NCBI GenBank assembly: GCA_002706335.1
Contig: PAKZ01000009.1
Span: 310,001-374,000 of the forward strand
DNA length: 64,000 bases
Source: Ahrensia sp.
GTDB taxonomy: Bacteria; Pseudomonadota; Alphaproteobacteria; Rhizobiales; Rhizobiaceae
Reading direction: 5' to 3'
In this document: piece by piece, positions 51,428-64,000 of the stretch
Position numbering within the stretch: the first letter of the stretch is position 1
How the letters are laid out: every line of letters begins with the position of its first letter
Notes under the pieces: model-generated
Database searches by the model: none
What the model saw: only the letters and a program-made list of their open reading frames with translations
Told to the model about the DNA's origin: nothing
Program-made: the position numbers and the translations under genes

Positions 51428-51892
51428 ATGGGCACGTTCTCCCAGAAGCCCGCAGACGTGGTGAAGAAGTGGGTGCTGATCGACGCCGAAGGTCTCGTCG
51501 TCGGCCGTCTCGCATCCATCGTCGCCATGCGTCTCCGCGGCAAGCACAAAGCCACCTTCACCCCGCATGTCGATGACGGCGACAACGTCATCATCATCAA
51601 TGCCGACAAGGTCGCCTTCACCGGCAAGAAGCGTTGGGACAAGAAGTATTACTGGCACACCGGCCATCCCGGCGGCATCAAGGAACGCACGGCCGAGCAG
51701 CTGCTCGACGGCCGTTTCCCGGAGCGCGTCGTTGAAAAGGCCATCGAACGCATGATCCCGCGCGGCCCGCTCGGCCGTCGCCAGATGAAGAACCTGCGCG
51801 TCTATGCCGGCGCCGAACATCCGCACGAGGCGCAGCAGCCGGAAGTGCTGGACGTCGCCGCGCTCAACCCCAAGAACAAGAAGGTGGCCTGA
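51428..51892 (+). CDS. rplM: 50S ribosomal protein L13
   Basis: 154 residues, typical of the alphaproteobacterial form with the extended N-terminus [20 protein letters not shown]. Signatures: [20 protein letters not shown] and [20 protein letters not shown]. It is followed by rpsI after five bases, the near-universal L13-S9 pair. Confidence 0.98.
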
Positions 51893-51897
51893 TCACC

Positions 51898-52383
51898 ATG
51901 GCTGAATTGAACTCTCTCGAAGAACTCGGCGAAGCAGCCGGCACCGTTGCCGCCGAAGTCCAGGAAGCGCCTGTCCACGTCCAGAAGCTGGACGCCCATG
52001 GCCGCGCCTATGCCACCGGCAAGCGCAAGGACGCCGTCGCACGCGTCTGGATCAAGCCGGGCACCGGCCGCATCACGGTCGGCGGCAAGAACTTCACCGA
52101 CTATTTCGCGCGCCCGGTCCTGCAGATGGTCCTGCAGCAGCCGATCGTCGCGACCAACCGCGCCGGCCAGTACGACATCGACGTCACCGTCGCCGGTGGC
52201 GGTCTCTCCGGCCAGGCTGGCGCCGTGCGTCATGGCATCTCCAAGGCTCTCACCTATTACGAGCCGGAACTGCGCGGCATCCTCAAGAAGGGCGGCTTCC
52301 TGACCCGCGACAGCCGCGTCGTCGAGCGCAAGAAATACGGCAAGGCGAAAGCCCGCCGCTCGTTCCAGTTCTCCAAGCGCTAA
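51898..52383 (+). CDS. rpsI: 30S ribosomal protein S9
   Basis: 161 residues. Alphaproteobacterial S9 has an N-terminal extension of about 30 residues ([20 protein letters not shown]). The conserved region starts at [20 protein letters not shown] and ends with [11 protein letters not shown], whose C-terminal arginine reaches the P site. A strong terminator follows. A decayed copy of the 3' third of this gene is present at about 54500, beyond the acyltransferase. Confidence 0.98.
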
Positions 52384-52408
52384 GGCGTTCGCGGAACATG
52401 TGATCATG

Positions 52409-52440
52409 AAGCGGGACCACGGTCCCGCTTTTTTTTCTTT
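52409..52440 (+). terminator. Intrinsic terminator of rplM-rpsI
   Basis: AAGCGGGACC (52409-52418) and GGTCCCGCTT (52421-52430), followed by TTTTTT-C-TTT. It isolates rpsI from the acyltransferase gene that follows. Confidence 0.9.
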
Positions 52441-52553
52441 CCTGACCGCCTTTCCCGCCGAAAACCCGAAAATGCAGCCGCCATGCGCCAGGTGCGGAGT
52501 CCGGACGTGCGGCAAGGCGCCATGTTCGGCTTAGGAAGAGCGGATGGCGGACG

Positions 52554-54488
52554 ATGCGCTACAGACCTGAAATCGACGGCCTTCGCGCCATCGCGGTCAT
52601 TCCCGTTATCCTTTTCCATGCCGGTTTCGGCTTCTTCGGCGGCGGCTTCATCGGCGTCGACGTCTTCTTCGTCATAAGCGGATATCTGATCACCGGCCTG
52701 CTGCTGGAGGAACTGGCCGGCGGCCAATTCTCGCTGCTGCGCTTCTACGAGCGTCGCGCGCGTCGCATCCTGCCGGCGCTGGCGGTCGTGGTGACAGCCT
52801 GCATTCCGTTCGCTCTTGCTTGGATGCACCCTCTGCAGATGGAGGATTTTTCGGCGAGCCTGATCGCCATCGTCCTATCCGCCTCAAACTTCCTTTTCTG
52901 GTATGAGAGCGGCTACTTCGCGCCGGCTGCCGACGAAAAGCCCCTGCTCCACACTTGGAGCCTCGCTGTCGAGGAACAGTTCTATATCTTCTTCCCGATC
53001 TTCCTGTTCGTGCTGTGGCGCTTCGCGAGAGACCGGACCTTTTTGACCGTCGCCGCGATTGCCGTAGCGAGCCTTCTGCTGAGCGAGTGGGGATGGCGGC
53101 ACTGGCCGACGGCCAATTTCTACCTGATGCCGACACGCGCCTGGGAGCTGTTTGCCGGCTCGCTTTGCGCGCAATGGTCCTTCCGCCGGGAGCAACGCCC
53201 GAACGGGCCGCTCGGCGCCTTCGGCCTTGCCCTGATCGTCGCTGCGGTTTTTCTGTTCGACGGCGACACGCCATTTCCGAGCGCGCTCGCCCTCGCGCCC
53301 GTTGTCGGCACCGCGCTGATCATCCTGTTCGCCGGCCCAGGCACCGCCGTTGCGCGGCTGCTGTCGTCGCGACTGCTGGTTGGCATCGGTCTGATCAGCT
53401 ACAGCGCCTATCTGTGGCACCAGCCACTGCTAGCCTTCGCGCGGGTCAGGTCCGCCGTCGCTCCCTCACTGTGGCTGATGGCATCGCTCGCAACGCTGTC
53501 CTTCGCGCTCGCCTATCTCAGCTGGCGCTTCGTCGAGCAGCCGTTTCGCAAGCGGTCGCCGGCGACGAAACGCGGCGGGACGATCAAGCTCGTCATTTTC
53601 GGCGCCGTCATTGGCGCGGCGCTCGCGGGTGTCGGTCTCGCCGGCGTGCTGTCCAAAGGCTTTCTCCACTCCTTCGAACCGTTCCCCTATGTCGCCGAAG
53701 ACGAGTTCAGGCTGCCGACGACCAAGACCGGCTACTGCTTTTACTTCGTCCTCAGGAGCGACCTGCCGGTCGGCGAGGAAGGACTGAATTGCTTCGTCGG
53801 TGATCCGGCAGCTCGCAAGGACGATATCCTGCTTTTTGGCGACTCCTTCGCGGGACACTGGGAGCCTTTCTTCGACGTCATCGGCCGCAAATATGGCCGC
53901 CGGATACATTCCGTCACCACGAACTGGTGCTTCCCGTCGCTGACCGACAACATCCCGGGTCCCCGCCCGCAAAATGTCGTCGACCAATGTCGCATCAACC
54001 GCGACTACCTCCGCAACAACGCATCCCGGTACGATATCATCGTCCTTTCGGCGCAGTGGAGCGGGATCGAAGAGAGCGGATTCACGCAGGACCTGTTCGA
54101 CCTGATCGACTTCCTGCTGGAGAACACCCGGGCGAGAATCGTTGTCATGGCGAGCCCGCTCGCTCTCGTCCGCAATACGGTCGAGAACTCGGTGCTGAGC
54201 GGTATGTTGCATGTCTCGCCGGACCCGAAATCGCAGGAAAGGATCGACGCGGTCCATCGGCGGATCGCCGCGGTCGCAAGCGGAAATGACCGAATCACGT
54301 TCCTCGACGAAAACGACCTGTTCGGCGACTATTTCGGATCGGGCGGTCTCGAAACGGCGGAAGGATACCTCTACTCGCTGGACGGCAAGCATATCAGCAT
54401 CTACGGATCGAAGGCCGCGGCGCGTCACGTTATCACAACGAGAAACCACTCATTCTTCTCCGCCCTGGCTCTGCCGCAGGACGATTAG
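52554..54488 (+). CDS. Acyltransferase 3/OafA type with C-terminal SGNH domain
   Basis: 644 residues. The N-terminal half is an acyltransferase-3 membrane domain with about ten helices. It starts RYRPEIDGLRAIAVIPVILF, and the catalytic histidine is in the FHAGFGFFGGGFIGVDVFFV segment; HTWSLAVEEQFYIFFPIFLF is also family-typical. After about residue 370 a periplasmic SGNH-hydrolase-like domain carries the nucleophile motif LLFGDSFAGHWEPF. Such proteins O-acetylate surface polysaccharide sugars. It sits alone after the rpsI terminator and is followed by a decayed rpsI fragment, so it looks acquired. Confidence 0.92.
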   Translation: MRYRPEIDGLRAIAVIPVILFHAGFGFFGGGFIGVDVFFVISGYLITGLLLEELAGGQFSLLRFYERRARRILPALAVVVTACIPFALAWMHPLQMEDFSASLIAIVLSASNFLFWYESGYFAPAADEKPLLHTWSLAVEEQFYIFFPIFLFVLWRFARDRTFLTVAAIAVASLLLSEWGWRHWPTANFYLMPTRAWELFAGSLCAQWSFRREQRPNGPLGAFGLALIVAAVFLFDGDTPFPSALALAPVVGTALIILFAGPGTAVARLLSSRLLVGIGLISYSAYLWHQPLLAFARVRSAVAPSLWLMASLATLSFALAYLSWRFVEQPFRKRSPATKRGGTIKLVIFGAVIGAALAGVGLAGVLSKGFLHSFEPFPYVAEDEFRLPTTKTGYCFYFVLRSDLPVGEEGLNCFVGDPAARKDDILLFGDSFAGHWEPFFDVIGRKYGRRIHSVTTNWCFPSLTDNIPGPRPQNVVDQCRINRDYLRNNASRYDIIVLSAQWSGIEESGFTQDLFDLIDFLLENTRARIVVMASPLALVRNTVENSVLSGMLHVSPDPKSQERIDAVHRRIAAVASGNDRITFLDENDLFGDYFGSGGLETAEGYLYSLDGKHISIYGSKAAARHVITTRNHSFFSALALPQDD

Positions 54489-55071
54489 CGATCCGCCGCG
54501 CCGTGCGTCACGGCATCGCCAGGACGTTGGCCAGCTACGAGCCGGAACGGCGCGGGACCCTTCCTCGAGAAAGGCGGATTCCAGACCCGCGACAGCCGCG
54601 TCGTCATGGTCGCGAGCGGAACCCGTGACCATCTTTGCCGAAAGCGCAGCTTGGTACGACAATAACCTCGCATTCATGAAACGGTCTTTAGGCGCAGCCA
54701 TGAAGCGCGACGATAACATGTTCCGCCCGTCACATCCGGCTTTGGAGAGGATCCGTCGAGCGCCATTTTGCCCTTTCGTGGATCACTTGAAAGCGACCAA
54801 TTAGCTGGTGAAAGAGCAAAACACCGTTGCACTCGACGAATACAATAGTATTCTTTCAATGTGGGCGCTTTGAAAATCGAGACCAGCCAAAATGGCCGAG
54901 CCTCCGCAGCGATCCGATGTCAACTCCCAGTGCAAAAAAGCGGCTTGTCGCCTGGCCGATTTTATTGCGAAGAAACACATCGTTAGCGCCCGCTTGCAAC
55001 ACCATCTCCCTTGTCAGCGGCTTGCTGAATTTTCATACACAACCAGCCGATAAAGCGGGGACGTAACCAAC
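54489..55071. other. Gene-poor stretch with rpsI remnant
   Basis: 583 bases with no intact gene. The first 140 bases are the rpsI-like fragment. The rest is unrecognised and lower in GC, with a small palindrome GAATAC-N4-GTATTC (54838-54853) and what may be the promoter region for the GT25 gene. Confidence 0.6.
54499..54632 (+). pseudogene. Decayed 3' fragment of rpsI (S9)
   Basis: Bases 54499-54605 align with rpsI 52221-52323 (S9 residues 108-142) at roughly three quarters identity, including unbroken runs such as TACGAGCCGGAAC and GACCCGCGACAGCCGCGTCG. A four-base insertion breaks the frame. After a gap that removes the last 19 codons, GCGGAAC..GTGA.CAT (54616-54632) again matches the bases just after the rpsI stop (52391-52407, 15 or so of 17). 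It begins ten bases after the acyltransferase stop. Clearly a remnant, not a gene. Confidence 0.85.
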
Positions 55072-55857
55072 TTGCTTTCCAGCCTCAACATATCGGTATT
55101 ATTGATAAATCTTGATCGTTCCGCGGACCGTTTTACGCGTAGCGCGCAACAATTGGAAAAACTCGGCGTTAAATATCGCAGGGTATCTGCAGTAGACGGA
55201 CTTGAACTCGATCGAAAAAGTGTCGAGCTCTACTCCGCAACGGGGACTTGGTGGCGCACTGGGAGAGACTTGACCAATGCCGAGATTGGTTGCTTCCTCA
55301 GCCATCTGAACTGTTTGCAGATATTCCTCGACAGCGGCGAGGAACTTTGCCTGATCGTTGAAGACGATATCGAGTTTCGCGAAGATGCTGCCGGTACGAT
55401 CGATGCGACCGCAAGATGGCTGAAAAGCGAGAGCGATGTCGACCTGGTCCACCTCAGTCGACCCGTAAAGAAGTTACACCTTCAATTGCAGACATCATTC
55501 CCCGCGCTTGAAAAAGCCGGGATTTGCCATGCGCCTTATCTTCCCGTCACGACCGGGGCGATTCTATGGACCCGGCGCGGCGCGCAAACGTTTTTGTCCG
55601 ATACAGTCGCAATCCACGCACCCATCGACGAGCTTCTTCAATCATGGTCGGCGAAACGCGGAAAAAGCTACGCATACCTCGATCCGCCTGCTCAACAATT
55701 GGGTGTGGACAGTTTGATTGAGCAAGACCGCGAAGTCACAAAAAAATCCCGAGGTGTAGTCGGACAAATCGTTCGCTTTGTCGCCCGGGCCCCGGTGTAT
55801 GCCAATGCGCTTGTCCGAAAGCGTTCACCCCTGATGCACGGCCGATCGCAGAGTTAG
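55072..55857 (+). CDS. Glycosyltransferase family 25 protein
   Basis: 261 residues. GT25 enzymes transfer galactose or glucose in lipopolysaccharide and similar glycans. Signatures are SVLLINLDRSADRFTRSAQQ at the start, EIGCFLSHLNCLQIF, and the metal/nucleotide aspartates in LCLIVEDDIEFRED. The start is a TTG with a GGGGA-type site about ten bases before; no ATG lies near the conserved beginning. AT-richer than the core genes, as are the next two genes, pointing to transfer. It stands alone on the plus strand. Confidence 0.85.
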   Translation: MLSSLNISVLLINLDRSADRFTRSAQQLEKLGVKYRRVSAVDGLELDRKSVELYSATGTWWRTGRDLTNAEIGCFLSHLNCLQIFLDSGEELCLIVEDDIEFREDAAGTIDATARWLKSESDVDLVHLSRPVKKLHLQLQTSFPALEKAGICHAPYLPVTTGAILWTRRGAQTFLSDTVAIHAPIDELLQSWSAKRGKSYAYLDPPAQQLGVDSLIEQDREVTKKSRGVVGQIVRFVARAPVYANALVRKRSPLMHGRSQS

Positions 55858-56027
55858 GCGATACCAAAATCGCTGCTTGGTAATTGGATCCGAATCGTCA
55901 TGCGCCCTTGGGAAGCGCCTGAGCGCGAACGATGGGCAAGTGCCGTGTTGCATGACAGAGGCATCAACCTGGCGGGTCGACAAAATTCAGCGCCGGAGCC
56001 GGTAAGCATTCAAACGAGGAGAGCGTT

Positions 56028-57047
56028 TCACCGCTCGCCGGGCAGATCGAAAAGCCTTTGCAACGAACTTGAATCGACATATTCCTGCGAGATATCGGAA
56101 AAGAGTGAAAGGGGGCGGCCACTTTTCAGCGCACCCCAATAGACCTTGTATTCTTCACTATTATTCCAATGCAAATTATCGCGAACCGCGACCTCGACTT
56201 TTTCCCGAAAATCATGAAAGAACTTGAAATGAAGTAGGGCCGCTACGGTATTTGTTTTTTGAATATACTTGGGAGAAAGGGAATGCGCTGTCTTTATCAG
56301 CATTCCATCGCGCCATTTAAAAAATGAGTATTTCGACAGGTTTATCTTGTTTTTCCCGTCCTCGGATCTAAAAAACACCCGGTCGCGCACACCTCCCTCA
56401 ACCCCAAAGCCAGATCTTTTGCTCTGGAATTTATAAGTATCCAAGCCATCGAAATATTTACACGTATCGATAAACCGCTCCCCCTGCTTGTATCTTACCT
56501 CTCCCAAATCGAGCCGCGAATACATGTCGATCATGGGTGTATAGACGACCCCGTCACCGGCAGACTCCGCATCGGCTATCAATTCAAAAATGCTCCTGTT
56601 TTCGACACCCCGAAAGACCAGCAATTCATCGATGTCGACAAGCAAGACCCAACGCCCTTCGGCAACCAGGTCCCGCAACACATGGTTCACCCAATAGAGC
56701 CCACAGCGGGCCGACAGGTAGCTGCCATTCGCCTCAATCAACACAACATCATTTTGCTCAAGCAACAGATCCCTGGTGCCATCGGATGACATATTGTCGA
56801 TCGCGATGAAGCCCTCGACCCCTAATTCGCGATAGTACTGCAAGAAATAAGGAAGCCTGAGCGCCTCGTCTCGGCAGCAGAAAACAACGATTGGCCCACC
56901 GCTCTTGAACAACGAAGTTTTGTCACCGCCAATGATCGTTAATTCGGACTTATGTCGATCAATAAACGTTTTGTATTGAGAATTTAAGCGCCCATGGCGC
57001 ACATCCGCTAATTTTTTTCTTATTGCGCTCTCAAATATATCAAGCAT
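56028..57047 (-). CDS. Glycosyltransferase family 2-like protein
   Basis: 339 residues of the Glyco_tranf_2_4/GT92-like group. The nucleotide-sugar part reads IVVFCCRDEALRLPYFLQYY, then FIAIDNMSSDGTRDLLLEQN and the DxD motif in WVLLVDIDELLVFR. The C-terminal part contains KTAHSLSPKYIQKTNTVAAL and HFKFFHDFREKVEVA. The start is ATG 57047; a GTG at 57092 in frame is an alternative. Codon use is clearly more AT-rich than the chromosome average. Convergent with the GT25 gene and in line with the pyruvyl transferase. Confidence 0.82.
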   Translation of the reverse strand: MLDIFESAIRKKLADVRHGRLNSQYKTFIDRHKSELTIIGGDKTSLFKSGGPIVVFCCRDEALRLPYFLQYYRELGVEGFIAIDNMSSDGTRDLLLEQNDVVLIEANGSYLSARCGLYWVNHVLRDLVAEGRWVLLVDIDELLVFRGVENRSIFELIADAESAGDGVVYTPMIDMYSRLDLGEVRYKQGERFIDTCKYFDGLDTYKFQSKRSGFGVEGGVRDRVFFRSEDGKNKINLSKYSFFKWRDGMLIKTAHSLSPKYIQKTNTVAALLHFKFFHDFREKVEVAVRDNLHWNNSEEYKVYWGALKSGRPLSLFSDISQEYVDSSSLQRLFDLPGER

Positions 57048-57150
57048 GAGAGTCCGCAACCACGCAACATACACAAATGGACAGCGAAACACTCATCCCG
57101 AGAGAACAACCGCTACTTCATCATGATCCGGACGACAATCATCCCGATGT

Positions 57151-58341
57151 TCAATGAACATGATCGGTTTCGGTGCCGGACATAGCTTCCGACAACGCCC
57201 CTCTCAAGAAGGTTTCGGACCGTTCTCTCCACGCATCAAGCTTGGGAGTAATTTCCGAATAGTCAGGCTCGGTCAAGTCGATGCCCGAAGCGTTGATAGA
57301 TATGGCTCTATCTTCTGCGCCGACCTCTCGTAAGAGACTGAACATCCGTGAATCCCCGCTTTCCGCATCTTTGACGACAGAATAGAACGATTTCTTGAAT
57401 ATCAGGGAAAAGGCGGTCCCGTGCAAAGAGGTCGTAATCACAAAGGAGGCATCGCGGAACAGGCGCACATAATCTGTGGGACCGATCGCATTCAACATTT
57501 TTCCGCCTCGGCCACGATGAGGGTTTTTCTCGCTGAATATATAGATCACATCCAGTTTGGTCTGACGCTTGATGTCATCAATCAGCTCCACGATTTTCGG
57601 ATATGGATCGTATGCGTAAGTCGGAATGTAAGCCAGCAAGTACGGCTTTTCTTTTCTAATCGAAGACTCGTCAGCCAGGCGCTCCCACATGCCCGGATCG
57701 ACCAGCAAACTCGGATCGCACACGACCTCAGCGGACATTCCCGTCAGCGATCGAACCAATTTTTCCGCTGGTCGCTCCCGGACGGAGATCGCTTTGTACT
57801 TGGAGAGATGTGTGACGTAAGCTTGGCGATACGCGTCCGGTATCGTCTCGGTCGCAAAACATGCGGCATAAGAGGCTCGGGGTATATTGTCGGGCGCGAA
57901 ATCGCACATGAATATGGTGTCGCCAACGGCAAAACGCGGGTTCCAAACCTGATCGCTGCCCGTCAGATAGAAATCGTAAATCGGCGGTTGCGCCCTTAAT
58001 TCTCCCGCGGATTTGTATTTGACGGGAGATAGTTTCAGCTTGGTCTGGATAAACCTGTGCTTGAGATAGCGTGCTTTTTTCCGATCTCTTTTGATGCCGA
58101 GTATGCGCCTGCTCATGCTTTGGAAGAGATACCGCAAGTGGCCGCCTGGTCCTTGGCGGGACGCCTTCAAATCGACATCCTTGGCATCGCGGCGCTCGAA
58201 GTGCCATTTCGTTGGATAGAGGTAATCGATTATCTCTGCCTCAAATCCCAATTGCTCCAGCTTCTTCTGGGTTGCGAAAGCCTGGAGAACGCTCCCGCAA
58301 TTGGGGATGTGCATTGTTATGATGCCAATTTTCTTCGGCAC
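57151..58341 (-). CDS. Polysaccharide pyruvyl transferase family protein
   Basis: 396 residues. The GTG start gives MPKKIGIITMHIPNCGSVLQ, the typical beginning of the family (CsaB/WcaK/EpsI), followed by AFATQKKLEQLGFEAEIIDY. Further pieces: YDFYLTGSDQVWNPRFAVGD, KAISVRERPAEKLVRSLTG and FVITTSLHGTAFSLIF with the conserved serine-histidine region. Such enzymes add pyruvate ketals to surface polysaccharides, or act as related sugar transferases. The gene is followed by the GT2-like gene after about 100 bases, probably one transcript. Confidence 0.9.
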   Translation of the reverse strand: MPKKIGIITMHIPNCGSVLQAFATQKKLEQLGFEAEIIDYLYPTKWHFERRDAKDVDLKASRQGPGGHLRYLFQSMSRRILGIKRDRKKARYLKHRFIQTKLKLSPVKYKSAGELRAQPPIYDFYLTGSDQVWNPRFAVGDTIFMCDFAPDNIPRASYAACFATETIPDAYRQAYVTHLSKYKAISVRERPAEKLVRSLTGMSAEVVCDPSLLVDPGMWERLADESSIRKEKPYLLAYIPTYAYDPYPKIVELIDDIKRQTKLDVIYIFSEKNPHRGRGGKMLNAIGPTDYVRLFRDASFVITTSLHGTAFSLIFKKSFYSVVKDAESGDSRMFSLLREVGAEDRAISINASGIDLTEPDYSEITPKLDAWRERSETFLRGALSEAMSGTETDHVH

Positions 58342-58977
58342 AGATTGTCCTTAACTGTTCCATTCGGCAGAGCGAGACTGATCGGCCGAGCGTCGTCAAC
58401 GGTTCGAAAAAACGCTTTAGATTGACCGCAAATCGTGTGTGCGACGACTCTTCTCATGGAGAATTCACAGTTTATAGCCCATATTCTCCCGGTTCTCTGG
58501 GGATATCCGGTCCACTGCTGGCCAGACGTCAATGGCGATAGCAACCAGATCCTGCAGTACGCGGGCTTACCGAGAATAGCTGTGGGGACGAGCGCATCGT
58601 GTCCGATCTTGAGCTCGGTAGTCTCGGTTCTTCCCGGTATTTGCTCGGGTAAGTCACGGCGGAGAAACCCACGGCCACCCCTCGCTCCGGGCCTCTGTCC
58701 AGATGGCTTTTCCGCTTGCCAGGCATTTGGCCGCTCGATAGGTCTGACAATGCCGAGAAAACGCTTCTATCGGACTCCCGCGATCGTCGCTTGATACGTG
58801 ACGTTATCTGCCAACAATCTGAACTATATCGCATTTTCACTTATGGAGAGCGGGTACCCACACGGTTGCGTCCCCGCACTCGCTATGGGATGAGCTTCGC
58901 AAAATGAGGCGGGGCGCGCGAATGCCGCGTGTCAGATCCGCCCAAAAGCGGGAACAGCCTGTCGCCGGACGTGCCCG
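58342..58977. other. Gene-free stretch between the pyruvyl transferase and RgpF-like genes
   Basis: 636 bases, divergent promoter region for two polysaccharide genes. Only unconvincing short frames are present; no transposase, repeat or RNA was recognised. Probably decayed accessory DNA. Confidence 0.5.
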
Positions 58978-60171
58978 ATGACGGTCGAGCGGGTTCGCGG
59001 AACTCTCGCGAGTATGGGGCAAGGTGTGCAAAACATCCCGTTCTGGAAATTACGGAGAGAAGCGGCGCGCCCCTTTCTCCAGGCGAAGTCGCGGATCGCC
59101 ACAACGTTCTCCACGCCCTATCACGATCTCGTCCTCGCGAGGAAAAGGACCACAAGCCCGGGCCGCTTGCCGGAGCGGGACAGGATCGCGATCTTCGTCA
59201 TCTTCCCGCACAAAGGCCTCGCAGCGTCTCACCTGAGAACGATCCGGCATCTAGCGGATAAGGGCTACGCACCGCTGGTGGTGTCGAACCTGCCACTCGG
59301 AGACGCTGAACGTGAACAGGTGCTGGCACGGTGTTGGCGGCTGATCGAACGGCCCAATTACGGTTATGATTTCGGGGCATATCGCGACGGGATCCTCTCC
59401 ATCGGCGAGCAGCTCGGCCGATTGCAGCGCCTCGTCCTCGTCAATGATTCCTGCTGGTATCCCCTGCCCGGATCGGATGACTGGCTCGGAAAGGCGGAGG
59501 CGCTGGGCCTTGACTTTGTCGGAGCGTCGGCGAGCCATGCTGTGGACATTCTGGACGTCGACGATCTGGACCGGATGACATGGCATTTCGATATGGCTCG
59601 GAAAGACTCTCACTACGGTTCGTTTGCGCTTTCCCTGTCCGGCCGCGTCACGTCCGATCGGCGGTTTTTGCGCTTCTGGAAACGGCTTGTTCTGTCCAAC
59701 CTGAAGGAGAAGGTCGTCAGACACGGAGAAATAGGACTGACACATTGGGCACTGCGCCACGGTTTCTCGCATGGCGCGGTCTATGACGCACGCCGGCTGG
59801 ATGAGGAATTTCGCGCCTTGCCTCCTGACGTACTTCTCCACATGGTCGAGCGGCTGGTCCCGGCCGGCGACCGGCAATCTTACGCGAAGAAGAAAGACAT
59901 ACTGCGTTCCGCGAGATCGGACGGAATCGATCGGGACCGGCTGGAAAAATTCGCCCTTCTCGTCGTCGCGCGTCTTGGAATGTCCTATTCGCTTGCCGAT
60001 TACCTGATCGAAAGGCACAGCTTTCCTTTCCTGAAGAAATCGCCGCTCTGGCTCGACGCCGAATCGTCGCGCATACTTCTGGAAATCACTGAGGAGATGG
60101 GGCCTGAAGCCGATTATATCCTCGCCGAAGCGCGAGAGCTTGTTCCTGACCGAATGGCTTCGATCGCATAG
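58978..60171 (+). CDS. Rhamnan synthesis protein F (RgpF)-like protein
   Basis: 397 residues, RgpF/PF05045-type domain found in rhamnose-glucose polysaccharide synthesis loci. Characteristic strings: RIAIFVIFPHKGLAASHLRT, RPNYGYDFGAYRDGILSIGE, RLVLVNDSCWYPLPGSDDWL and HYGSFALSLSGRV. The N-terminal 60 residues are basic and not conserved. Start ATG 58978 is used; ATG 59014 is possible. Likely a glycosyltransferase, single gene on the plus strand. GC content is back to chromosome level, unlike the preceding three genes. Confidence 0.83.
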   Translation: MTVERVRGTLASMGQGVQNIPFWKLRREAARPFLQAKSRIATTFSTPYHDLVLARKRTTSPGRLPERDRIAIFVIFPHKGLAASHLRTIRHLADKGYAPLVVSNLPLGDAEREQVLARCWRLIERPNYGYDFGAYRDGILSIGEQLGRLQRLVLVNDSCWYPLPGSDDWLGKAEALGLDFVGASASHAVDILDVDDLDRMTWHFDMARKDSHYGSFALSLSGRVTSDRRFLRFWKRLVLSNLKEKVVRHGEIGLTHWALRHGFSHGAVYDARRLDEEFRALPPDVLLHMVERLVPAGDRQSYAKKKDILRSARSDGIDRDRLEKFALLVVARLGMSYSLADYLIERHSFPFLKKSPLWLDAESSRILLEITEEMGPEADYILAEARELVPDRMASIA

Positions 60172-60286
60172 CGGGAAGCCGGTGCGCGACCGTCTCTCCG
60201 ATCAGGGCACGAATTCCTCTGTGCTTTCGGCAAGTCTGGCGTAAAACGAACGCGGCCCGAATTGTCGAGCCGAGCAGGAGAACCAA

Positions 60287-61915
60287 ATGCCGAAGCCGGG
60301 ATCCCTGATGGGTCTCTTCAAGAACCAGACATTCGCCATGCTCTGGTTCGCTTCGCTGGCGTCCAATTTCGGAGGGCTGGTGCAGGCGGTCGGCGCTGCA
60401 TGGATGATGACCGAGCTGACGTCGTCGGAAAGCATGGTCGCCCTCGTCCAGACCTCCGTGACATTGCCGATCATGGTCTTCTCGCTGATCGCCGGCGTCT
60501 TCGCCGACAATTTCGACCGGCGCAAGGTCATGCTCGTCGCGCAGGGCTTCATGTTCGTCGTTTCGATCGTGCTGACCGTGCTGGCGCTTGAGGGCCTCTT
60601 GTCGCCCTGGCTGCTGCTTTCCTTCACCTTCCTGATCGGCTGCGGCACTGCGCTGCATAACCCGTCATGGCAGGCATCGATGGGCGACATCGTCTCGCGC
60701 GACGAACTACCGGCGGCGGTCTCGCTCAATTCCATGGGCTTCAATATCATGCGCTCGGTCGGCCCGGCGGCGGGCGGTGCCATCGTCGCAATTGCCGGCG
60801 CGGCCGCCGCCTTTGCGGTCAATGCGGCGAGCTATGTGGCGATCATTGCCGCCCTGTTCCGCTGGCATCCGGCAACCCAGCCCAGCACGCTGCCGCGCGA
60901 GCCCTTCGGCAGCGCCTTCCAGGCGGGACTGCGTTACGTTGCCATGTCGCCGAACCTGATGAAGGTGATCCTGCGCGGCTTCGTCTTCGGCGTTTCGGCC
61001 GTCGCCCTGCAAGCGCTCCTGCCCGTGGTCGTGCGCGACAATCTCGATGGCGACGCGCTTGTCTTCGGCACGCTGCTCGGCTGTTTCGGCTTCGGCGCGG
61101 TCGTCGGCGCGCTGGTCAACGCCGAATTGCGCGCCCGCTTCCACAACGAGCTGATCGTGCGGATCGGTTTCGCCGGCTTTGCGCTGAGCAGCTTCGTGCT
61201 CGCGGTCAGCTCCTGGACAATGCTCTCGGCGGCGGCCCTGCTGCTTGCCGGCGCATGCTGGGTCGTCTCGCTGTCGCTCTTCAACGTCACCATGCAGATG
61301 TCGACGCCGCGCTGGGTCGTCGGCCGCGCGCTGGCGCTCTACCAGACCGGGACCTTCGGCGGCATGGCGATCGGCTCCTGGCTGTGGGGCGCGCTGTCGG
61401 AGACCATCGGCACCAATGGCGCACTGACCGGCGCCGCGCTGGTGCTGCTCGGCGGCGCTATGATCGGCTTCTTCCTGCCGCTGCCCGATTTCGGCCAGCT
61501 CAACCTGAACCCGCTGAACCGCTTCACCGAACCGCCCCTGCGGCTCGATCTCACCCAGCGAAGCGGGCCGATCATGATCATGGTCGATTACGAGATCGCC
61601 CAGGAGGACGTGCAGGAGTTCCTCGCCACCATGACGCTGCGCCGCCGCATTCGCATTCGCGACGGCGCGCAGCAATGGGCGCTGCTGCGCGACCTGGAAA
61701 ACCCCGACCTGTGGACCGAGACCTATCACGTGCCGACCTGGGTCGAATATATCCGCCACAACCAGCGCCGCACCCAGTCCGACGCGGAAGTGACGGAAAA
61801 GCTGCTGGCGCTGCACAAGGGGCCGACCCCGCTCCACGTCCACCGCATGATCGAACGCCAGACCGTTACGCCGCTCGACGACATGCCGCGCGTGATCCGC
61901 GACGACCCGCTCTGA
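60287..61915 (+). CDS. MFS transporter with C-terminal monooxygenase-like domain
   Basis: 542 residues. Residues 1-410 form an MFS permease of the EntS/MFS_3 type with 12 helices: FAMLWFASLASNFGGLVQAV near the start, DNFDRRKVMLVAQGFMF as the A-motif region between helices 2 and 3, and WVVGRALALYQTGTFGGMAI. The last 110 residues (from RSGPIMIMVDYEIAQEDVQE) are a soluble ferredoxin-like domain, similar to antibiotic-biosynthesis monooxygenases, usual in this MFS subfamily. Substrate unknown; relatives export siderophores or drugs. Confidence 0.88.
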   Translation: MPKPGSLMGLFKNQTFAMLWFASLASNFGGLVQAVGAAWMMTELTSSESMVALVQTSVTLPIMVFSLIAGVFADNFDRRKVMLVAQGFMFVVSIVLTVLALEGLLSPWLLLSFTFLIGCGTALHNPSWQASMGDIVSRDELPAAVSLNSMGFNIMRSVGPAAGGAIVAIAGAAAAFAVNAASYVAIIAALFRWHPATQPSTLPREPFGSAFQAGLRYVAMSPNLMKVILRGFVFGVSAVALQALLPVVVRDNLDGDALVFGTLLGCFGFGAVVGALVNAELRARFHNELIVRIGFAGFALSSFVLAVSSWTMLSAAALLLAGACWVVSLSLFNVTMQMSTPRWVVGRALALYQTGTFGGMAIGSWLWGALSETIGTNGALTGAALVLLGGAMIGFFLPLPDFGQLNLNPLNRFTEPPLRLDLTQRSGPIMIMVDYEIAQEDVQEFLATMTLRRRIRIRDGAQQWALLRDLENPDLWTETYHVPTWVEYIRHNQRRTQSDAEVTEKLLALHKGPTPLHVHRMIERQTVTPLDDMPRVIRDDPL

Positions 61916-62035
61916 CGGCTCGCCGCGCCGGCGGTTTTACCCAATATGACAGTTCTGTGTCACGGGACGGCAAGACAGTGCGTTTCCGGGACGACACGCT
62001 TGCCTCGCGCGATTTTCTCGTGTGTGAGTTCGGGC

Positions 62036-63532
62036 ATGACGGGCCTGCTGCTGCGTGCCGCCCTGTTTGCATTGCTGGCGCTGGCGGCGCTGAACGAAAC
62101 CGAGATCGCCTCCCTGCTCTTCGCGGATCCTTCGCGAGGCGTCGCCCAGGCGTATTCGCTGACGCTACGCAGCTTGACATGGTTTGCCGGCGCCTTCGTG
62201 GTGATCGCGGCGCTTGAGATCTTCTTCTGGAAGGGTGTCGTCGCCCGCCTCGCCCGCCATCCCGTGCCGGCGCTCCTCAAGAGCGTTGTCGCGCTGATCG
62301 TCCTGGCCATCACCGCGACTTTCGTCATCTCCTTCGTCTTCAACCGCGACGTCACGGCCGTCTGGGCGACTTCCGGCGTGCTCGGCATCGTGCTCGGTTT
62401 CGCCCTGCGCAACATGATCCAGGACATCTTCACCGGCATCGCGCTCAATCTCGACGGGTCGATCCGGGAAGGCGACTGGATCACCCTGCACCATCGCGAT
62501 TTCACGGCCGAGCAATATGGCAAGATGCTCGATATCGGCTGGCGCGTCTGCCGGGGGCAGCTCGAAAACAACAATGTCGTCATCGTGCCCAATGGCATGC
62601 TCGGCATGATGGCGATCACCAATTTCGCCCATTCCGACCACGTCTCGCGGCTGCAGACGGAGATTACCATCGATTTCGATGTACCGCCGGAGCGTGCCCG
62701 GCGCATCCTTCTGGCCGGCGCGACCGCCGCCGCCACCGAAAAGGGCATCCTCGCCGATCCGCCGCCGGCCGTGCTGATCGGCGAACCGGGAGAGCATGGC
62801 GTCTGCTACATCGTGCGCTTCTGGGGCAAGGTCGACCAGCGCTCGCCCTCGGCGCTGCGCGACGCGGTGATGACGCATCTGCTCCGCCAGTTGCACATCG
62901 CCGGGCTGACCCCTGCCCTGCCGAAGGAAGACATTTTCATCGACCGGCGGCCCAAACGCCTTCTCGACCATGCCGGCGACGGCGACCGGCTCGCAATCCT
63001 GTCCCGCACCGACATCTTTGCCGGCGCGCTGGAGAAACCCGAACTCGTCGAAATGGCGAAGAAATCCGCCATCCGCCAGTTCGCGCCGGGCGACGCATTG
63101 GTCCGCCAGGGCGAAGACGGCACCTCCCTCTTCGTCGTCGCCGAAGGCATTCTCGACGTCCATATCGAAGGGCCGGACGGCCGTCCGCTCAAGGTCGGAC
63201 ACATCCTCGCCGGCGAGATCTTCGGCGAGATGTCGCTGCTCACCGGCGCACCGCGCTCCGCGACCGTCACCGCCTCCACGGGCGTCGTCGCCTATGAGAT
63301 CACGCGCGATCTGTTCGAGACGATCCTGAACAGGCGGCCCGGCATTGCCGAGGAGATCAGCCGTCTCGTCGCCCGCCGCCAGGCGGCGACCGCGGGCGCG
63401 GCCAGCACGCAGCCGCCCGCCGATGTCGAGAGCCAGGAAAAGCTCCTGAAACAGCGCATCCTCGACGGCATGGCGAAGGTGTTCGCCGGCCTCGCCCGCA
63501 CGTCCCCTCCGGGCCCTGCCGTTCAAGCCTGA
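62036..63532 (+). CDS. Mechanosensitive ion channel (MscS) with cyclic nucleotide-binding domain
   Basis: 498 residues. Four N-terminal helices are followed by the MscS core: GVLGIVLGFALRNMIQDIFT forms the pore helix and IALNLDGSIREGDWI the following beta domain; GQLENNNVVIVPNGMLG is family-typical. From about residue 345 a cyclic-nucleotide-binding domain follows, FAPGDALVRQGEDGTSLFVV then the phosphate cassette GEIFGEMSLLTGAPRSATV. The RSA of the cassette (arginine) is intact, so it could bind a cyclic nucleotide. The start MTGLLLRAALFALL at 62036 is preferred to an upstream in-frame ATG because the helix starts there. Confidence 0.88.
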   Translation: MTGLLLRAALFALLALAALNETEIASLLFADPSRGVAQAYSLTLRSLTWFAGAFVVIAALEIFFWKGVVARLARHPVPALLKSVVALIVLAITATFVISFVFNRDVTAVWATSGVLGIVLGFALRNMIQDIFTGIALNLDGSIREGDWITLHHRDFTAEQYGKMLDIGWRVCRGQLENNNVVIVPNGMLGMMAITNFAHSDHVSRLQTEITIDFDVPPERARRILLAGATAAATEKGILADPPPAVLIGEPGEHGVCYIVRFWGKVDQRSPSALRDAVMTHLLRQLHIAGLTPALPKEDIFIDRRPKRLLDHAGDGDRLAILSRTDIFAGALEKPELVEMAKKSAIRQFAPGDALVRQGEDGTSLFVVAEGILDVHIEGPDGRPLKVGHILAGEIFGEMSLLTGAPRSATVTASTGVVAYEITRDLFETILNRRPGIAEEISRLVARRQAATAGAASTQPPADVESQEKLLKQRILDGMAKVFAGLARTSPPGPAVQA

Positions 63533-63598
63533 TGCGAGACCTTTAACAAGCGCGGCCGATGCGCTACCAGACAAGACCTTCGTAGAACGAGTTCTGTC

Positions 63599-64000
63599 AT
63601 GCCCTCGAAAACCATCGACCACGCCTTTACCGCGCGCAGCCTGACCGGCGGAGCGACCGACCCGACCCATGCCGGAGCCCTTTCCTTCATGCGGCGCAAA
63701 TATACGAAAAACCTCAAGGGCGCGGACGCCGTCGTCTGGGGCATTCCCTTCGACGCCGCCGTCTCCAACCGGCCGGGCGCGCGCTTCGGCCCGCAGGCGA
63801 TCCGGCGCGCCTCGGCGATCATGGACAACGATCCGCAATACCCTTTCCAGCGCGACCTGTTCGAGCACCTCGCGGTGATCGACTATGGCGACTGCCTGCT
63901 CGACTACGGCAATCACCAGAAGACCCCGGCGACGATCGAGCGCGAGGCGACGAAGATCCTCAAATCCGGCGCTTTCCTCGTCACGCTCGGCGGCGACCAC
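63599..64000 (+). CDS. speB: Agmatinase/ureohydrolase family protein (5' part; runs off the right edge)
   Basis: 134 codons visible. The start MPSKTIDHAFTARSLTGGAT leads into VVWGIPFDAAVSNRPGARFG and PQAIRRAS, standard for agmatinase-like members, and the window ends exactly at the first manganese motif, TLGGDH. Family enzymes hydrolyse agmatine, guanidinobutyrate, proclavaminate or guanidine, so the symbol is provisional. It lies 66 bases after the channel gene. Confidence 0.8.
   Translation, partial: MPSKTIDHAFTARSLTGGATDPTHAGALSFMRRKYTKNLKGADAVVWGIPFDAAVSNRPGARFGPQAIRRASAIMDNDPQYPFQRDLFEHLAVIDYGDCLLDYGNHQKTPATIEREATKILKSGAFLVTLGGDH

Follow-up and report, generated by a model that had tools for sequence, protein, structure and literature searches.

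A decayed copy of rpsI behind an acyltransferase gene

In the 64,000-nucleotide stretch of Ahrensia sp. DNA analysed here (the window; positions 310,001 to 374,000 of contig PAKZ01000009.1), the ribosomal protein gene rpsI is followed by an acyltransferase gene and then by a short second piece of rpsI at 54498-54605. This piece is a decayed partial copy of rpsI: its homology is significant, its frame is disabled and purifying selection is gone. With a little more than even confidence, we take it to be an ordinary decayed scrap at an internal seam of a block of surface-polysaccharide genes, inserted between rpsI and the gene for a major facilitator superfamily (MFS) transporter.

The fragment aligns with nucleotides 323-426 of rpsI (codons 108-142) at 80.6% identity over 108 columns, with one 4-base gap (blastn). 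When rpsI was compared with the window, the fragment was found at E 2e-23 and the next best match after it at E 0.009; against the whole genome (G000, a draft of 5.1 Mb in 46 contigs) the E value was 2.2e-21. The alignment score was 112, compared with a best score of 39 among 500 first-order Markov shuffles. Chance similarity is ruled out by the E value of 2e-23 and the shuffle scores. Used as a query against the whole genome, the fragment found nothing at E ≤0.001 except itself and rpsI.

The fragment starts 9 bases past the stop codon of the acyltransferase gene (52554-54488), which sits between it and the intact rpsI, as the first-pass annotation of this DNA had described. The homology begins and stops within the gene, and the last 19 codons (143-161) are missing. 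No forward frame gives S9 over the whole fragment; the reading starts in one frame and continues in another. The annotation had matched a longer stretch, reaching through the 3′ flank of rpsI to 54632, at about 75% identity. The homologous part, the frameshifting gap and the loss of the last 19 codons stand, and this part measures 81%; the flank at 54606-54632 does not.

For the flank, 54606-54665 was aligned to the region past codon 142 in 95 rpsI loci, that of the window included. The window's own flank gave 14 identical bases of 17 and a score of 11.0, equalled by 72 of 200 shuffles. The best score over all regions, 17.0 (L021), was equalled by 11 of 100 shuffled queries run across the same 95. 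Single regions that beat most shuffles (L021 with 0/200 as good, L013 with 1/200 and L156 with 2/200) are expected in such small number among 95 tries. The flank of the congener G003 scored 14.0, with 6 of 200 shuffles as good (9 of 200 for its duplicate locus). We therefore rejected 54606-54632 as established rpsI-flank homology, since it does no better than shuffles over the 95 regions; homology beyond codon 142 is unproven.

Other identities were considered for the DNA around and behind the fragment. The 466 bases from the fragment to the next gene (54606-55071) matched nothing in 60 other genomes and only themselves in 61, which rules out a repeated element of relatives, and their open reading frames (ORFs) gave no credible Pfam match. 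The idea that a known plasmid or phage element left 54400-55300 behind was rejected, since the stretch had no match among plasmids or phages (near records of the window's genome were possibly excluded in that search).

A block between rpsI and the MFS transporter gene

The genus sample searched comprised six genomes, G000 and the congeners G001-G005; in the five congeners the comparison took in as much as 20 kb around rpsI. The features of the region are as follows.

51428-51892, plus strand: rplM, ribosomal protein L13, intact (ORF of 154 aa; DNA 86.2-92.5% identical to that of the five congeners)
51898-52383, plus strand: rpsI, ribosomal protein S9, intact parent copy (ORF of 161 aa; matched in 37 of 41 genomes, its own included)
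52384-52498, plus strand: 3′ flank of rpsI, native-like (a hairpin with a T run is readable; aligns to the rpsI flanks of G003 and G005)
52554-54488, plus strand: AT3-SGNH acyltransferase gene, OafA-like, 644 aa, apparently intact (PF01757, E 6e-34; PF19040, E 6.5e-22)
54498-54605, plus strand: decayed rpsI fragment, codons 108-142, with a 4-base gap breaking the frame (homology to rpsI)
54606-55071, no strand: non-coding DNA with no relative detected in genome, plasmid, phage and Pfam searches
55072-55857, plus strand: glycosyltransferase family 25 gene (PF01755, E 2.2e-19)
56028-57092, minus strand: glycosyltransferase family 2 gene (PF13704, E 1.5e-23)
57151-58341, minus strand: polysaccharide pyruvyl transferase gene (PF04230, E 6.1e-27)
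58978-60171, plus strand: RgpF-like (rhamnan synthesis) gene, closing the block (PF05045, E 9.6e-18)
60172-60286, plus strand: right edge of the block, DNA leading up to the MFS gene and probably native (aligned with its counterpart in G001 and G005)
60287-61915, plus strand: MFS transporter gene (close behind rpsI in G001 and G005; its NCBIfam MFS matches are all below the cut-offs)

The block measures about 7.7 kb (52554-60171) and begins with the acyltransferase gene, followed by the glycosyltransferase family 25, glycosyltransferase family 2, pyruvyl transferase and RgpF-like genes. It is absent between rpsI and the downstream genes in all four congeners with a readable site. An MFS gene stands about 180 bp past rpsI in G001 and about 720 bp past it in G005, and an arginase-family gene 110-115 bp past it in G002 and G003; in G004 the contig stops 1.4 kb past rpsI and carries other DNA. 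Empty sites in sister genomes had been named as something to look for, and the four readable sites are of this kind. They support the proposed insertion at the rpsI 3′ end, with the window alone carrying the acyltransferase and the four glycan genes. None of the five congeners has the acyltransferase beside rpsI; three have homologues elsewhere (35-36% identity) and two have none.

Both outer flanks align to congener DNA. For 52384-52498, none of 300 shuffles was as good as the match to the G003 rpsI flank and 2 of 300 were as good as that to G005. For 60172-60286, compared with the region before the MFS gene, 8 of 300 shuffles were as good for G001 and 5 of 300 for G005. The block thus probably lies between native flanks, at roughly 52.5-60.2 kb. 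GC content in 400-base windows is 0.60-0.67 at 51600-54799, 0.46-0.56 at 54800-58799 and 0.63-0.68 at 60400-63999, and the drop begins about 200 bases beyond the fragment.

Downstream of the MFS gene are a mechanosensitive-channel-like gene and then an arginase-family gene. The end of the channel gene, which with the MFS gene occupies 60287-63532, resembles a cyclic-nucleotide-binding domain. The gap between rpsI and the arginase-family gene varies within the genus: it holds an MFS and a channel gene in G005, an MFS gene in G001 and neither in G002 and G003.

The acyltransferase belongs to the AT3-SGNH class by its fusion of an AT3 membrane domain (PF01757, residues 5-324) with an SGNH domain (PF19040, residues 411-626). 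It carries the motifs GDS at residue 429 and DGKH at residue 610. Acyl transfer to a surface glycan is predicted, for which the neighbouring glycan genes are circumstantial evidence.

Decay of the fragment

With the 4-base gap excluded, 105 columns could be compared between the fragment and the window's own rpsI. They differ at 18 positions, 8, 4 and 6 of them at codon positions 1, 2 and 3. When the same rpsI was compared with 77 other distinct sequences of the gene, the differences summed to 172, 141 and 802, a third-position share of 0.72. Given that share, the binomial P for the fragment is 7e-4. Among 1557 rpsI pairs with 14-22 differences, none had a third-position share of 1/3 or less and the lowest was 0.43; these pairs share ancestry and are not independent, so the figure is a strong description and no exact probability.

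All 12 first- and second-position differences of the fragment are absent from all five congeners, and four of its six third-position differences are present in at least one congener. At 23 genus-variable sites, the fragment agrees with its own rpsI at 18 and with G003 at 19. The differences are indifferent to codon position, as in dead sequence. The divergence of the fragment is mostly decay, and a foreign donor is not needed. The synonymous states found in congeners, together with the position-blind changes, point to a source that was probably a working rpsI whose synonymous states differed slightly, followed by decay without constraint.

Among the matches listed for 394 family genomes, the window's own rpsI and that of G003 (both 81%) were among the closest to the fragment, and no rpsI exceeded 81% over its full length. 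In 397 order genomes, a sample that overlaps in part with that of the family, no full-length match above 81% was listed; G757 reached 83% over 69 bases only. The first-pass annotation had allowed for a fragment brought from another species, which these comparisons and the position-blind decay make unnecessary.

A related explanation is that the fragment arrived as a passenger, together with the acyltransferase gene, from an unrelated donor. The fragment abuts that gene, whose nearest rows by tree path are in other genera and families, and no close acyltransferase was found in a congener. Against this, the closest rpsI sequences include the window's own and that of G003, and none of 17 rpsI-linked acyltransferase loci in other genomes has such a scrap. 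We consider this origin improbable.

At least 12 of the other 393 family genomes gave a second match to the fragment among the matches listed, and all 12 were re-examined. The extra matches covered 31-51 bases, save in G076, where another contig carries a duplicate of full length. The idea that second rpsI fragments are common was rejected. In G076, rpsI occurs twice with equal score (contigs C46 and C99), one copy near a contig end; this is probably an assembly duplicate.

How the fragment may have arisen

The homology starts and stops within rpsI, with the acyltransferase stop codon 9 bases away on the left and 466 bases unmatched in 60 other genomes on the right; a short local copy would be the simplest origin. 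The native-like flank behind the intact rpsI also favours it. The fragment would have been copied from the window's own rpsI, about 2.3 kb upstream, or from that of a congener, and the copying would have coincided with the joining of the acyltransferase gene to the other block genes. Illegitimate duplication, by short homology or break repair, is a likely route, as is a tandem duplication later trimmed by deletion. The copy would afterwards have decayed without function, leaving a scrap with no role of its own. A single crossover or a tandem duplication gives the same gene order but must then lose codons 143-161 and the flank.

Several observations weigh against the reading as a locally copied scrap. 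The four third-position states shared with congeners are common family-wide (43 to 69 of 77 sequences), and the rpsI of other genera (G267, G093) is about as close to the fragment as the window's own. A phylogeny of the fragment had been suggested; in the tree built on the 105 columns the fragment has no settled place, and so few columns do not fix a donor. The weak similarity to the G003 flank, if real, would mean that the copy once extended through the rpsI 3′ end. At the left edge of the block, 52384-52498 fails to align with G001 (187 of 300 shuffles as good) or G004 (217 of 300). Finally, the nearest congener of the intact rpsI switches near codons 100-108, which would fit a replaced gene end.

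The last point bears on a tentative alternative, on the whole an unlikely one, in which homology assisted the insertion. DNA from a congener, carrying the 3′ part of rpsI and the acyltransferase gene, would have recombined within rpsI and been closed by an illegitimate joint at its far end; this is the model of the first-pass annotation with no integrase involved, and a change of nearest congener within rpsI is what it would predict. Left behind would be an intact rpsI, the acyltransferase gene and a truncated rpsI copy, and a single crossover does yield the order intact gene, cargo, 5′-truncated copy. The acyltransferase gene adjoins rpsI in other genera, so a linked donor is plausible, and the four congener-like third-position states are unlike the window's own rpsI. 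Over codons 1-107 the intact rpsI is nearest to G001 (91.9%; others 87.9-88.8%), and over codons 108-161 to G003 and G004 (93.3%; G001 90.9%).

This change of nearest congener is not significant, however. A maximum-chi-square test on the sites that separate two congeners, with 1000 permutations and 20 tests in all, found 401 (G001/G003) and 512 (G001/G004) permutations as strong for rplM-rpsI, and 520 and 194, respectively, for rpsI only. Two of the 20 tests fell below 50 of 1000, G003/G004 with 14 (in rplM) and G002/G004 with 21 (near codon 48); neither is at codon 108. The data are few and a small replacement could escape detection. Homology-assisted insertion also requires an extra deletion, since codons 143-161 and a credible flank are missing from the fragment. 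The native-like flank behind the intact gene speaks against it as well, though DNA from a congeneric donor might look alike and such a replacement would be hard to see.

It had also been proposed that rpsI was made whole by the incoming DNA, with its old 3′ end left behind. The flank behind the intact gene resembles those of G003 and G005, the fragment lacks the 3′ end, no integrase was found among the genes and gap ORFs scanned and the breakpoint is not significant. On this evidence no rebuilding of the intact rpsI from outside is needed, and the proposal is not supported.

We regard it as highly improbable that the fragment is the displaced attachment site of a site-specific integrative element, now decayed, that had used the 3′ end of rpsI. 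Streptococcal integrative and conjugative elements (ICEs) use this gene end (PMC4701971), with a similar geometry, and the four readable congeners have unoccupied sites, though these are not specific to this class of element. However, no integrase or transposase match was found among the five block genes and the eight gap ORFs scanned (a lost integrase is conceivable). The displaced gene end, a defining feature, is missing, with homology stopping at codon 142, and the two rpsI copies differ at 18 of 105 positions.

Acyltransferase genes behind rpsI in other genomes

An AT3-SGNH gene adjoins rpsI in 8 of 80 named loci. Two are in Rhizobium and convergent with rpsI; Defluviimonas, three Roseovarius, Loktanella and Tsuneonella have both genes in the same direction, like the window. 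In the family, the linkage occurs in at least 11 genomes, always convergent. Nine of these came from coordinate comparison or genus follow-up (five in g18, two in g110, and g71 and g74), and the linkage was seen in 2 of 40 further fetched family acyltransferase loci (G213, G227). The fetched family loci are the better acyltransferase matches among 127 genomes and not a random sample. The linkage, in one orientation or the other, thus spans Rhizobiaceae, Rhodobacterales and one sphingomonad.

The rpsI-linked loci are L074, L079, L091, L094, L107, L110, L114, L118, L174-L182, L235 and L244; an arginase-family gene lies beyond the acyltransferase gene in 9 of 19 linked loci. None of five other fetched loci (L183-L187) has the linkage, L184 beginning 322 bases before the gene with the neighbour out of view. 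Among 153 class-level genomes, 18 others gave a match at E ≤1e-50, in no case near rpsI as judged from coordinates compared by eye. An apparent rpsI-acyltransferase fusion in L114 was rejected as a stop-to-stop frame artefact; the genes are in different frames.

In the acyltransferase tree, the window gene is placed next to the rpsI-linked clade of rhizobia, a weakly supported position (Shimodaira-Hasegawa-like approximate likelihood ratio test, SH-aLRT, 81). The six same-direction cases are scattered, and the linkage may reflect either repeated gains or an ancient gene order with losses.

The same bracket had been named as something to look for in sister genomes, and the outcome is negative. 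Elsewhere the acyltransferase gene stands beside rpsI with no detectable fragment beyond it (0 of the 17 linked loci scanned, out of 19; strongest matches E 5e-4, at most 41 bases), in a scan that would miss an older, more decayed scrap. The linkage of rpsI and acyltransferase is therefore independent of the fragment.

One reading of the linkage is that in Alphaproteobacteria AT3-SGNH surface-acylation genes have docked time and again just behind rpsI, in both orientations, by recombination with the conserved rpsI as a homology arm; the window fragment would be the scar of one event. We think this quite unlikely. No paper with rpsI was among the matches listed in a literature search on AT3-SGNH and rpsI, a thin basis for calling the linkage unreported, and a search on rpsI with genomic islands or gene fragments listed nothing useful.

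The fragment itself is a minor feature, a scar useful for ordering the steps by which the surface-polysaccharide block was assembled. The linkage may be of more consequence: if surface-modification genes are exchanged with ribosomal protein genes as homology arms, this could be tested across many genomes in the DNA just behind rpsI.

Comparison with known systems

Partial gene duplications and pseudogene scraps occur at the seams of genomic islands. The window fragment is alike in being a short, out-of-frame and unconstrained copy of a housekeeping gene beside newly gained genes. It bears no mark that distinguishes it from such scraps.

Streptococcal ICEs target the 3′ end of rpsI (PMC4701971). 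The likeness is in the cargo directly behind rpsI and the piece of rpsI beyond the cargo; the window differs in that no integrase was found, that the fragment does not reach the 3′ end of rpsI and that the identity is only 81%. The idea of the first-pass annotation of an insertion at this gene end was sensible given these elements; two defining features are not seen here.

Tandem duplications stimulated by transformation (merodiploids) would likewise leave an intact gene and a second copy of it, separated by other DNA. They measure about 100 to 900 kb (PMC3784515), compared with the 108 bp left in the window.

With the OafA/OafB-type AT3-SGNH O-acyltransferases (PMC9558356), the window gene shares both domains, the GDS and D-x-x-H motifs and the adjoining glycan genes. 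It is notable only for its place next to rpsI.

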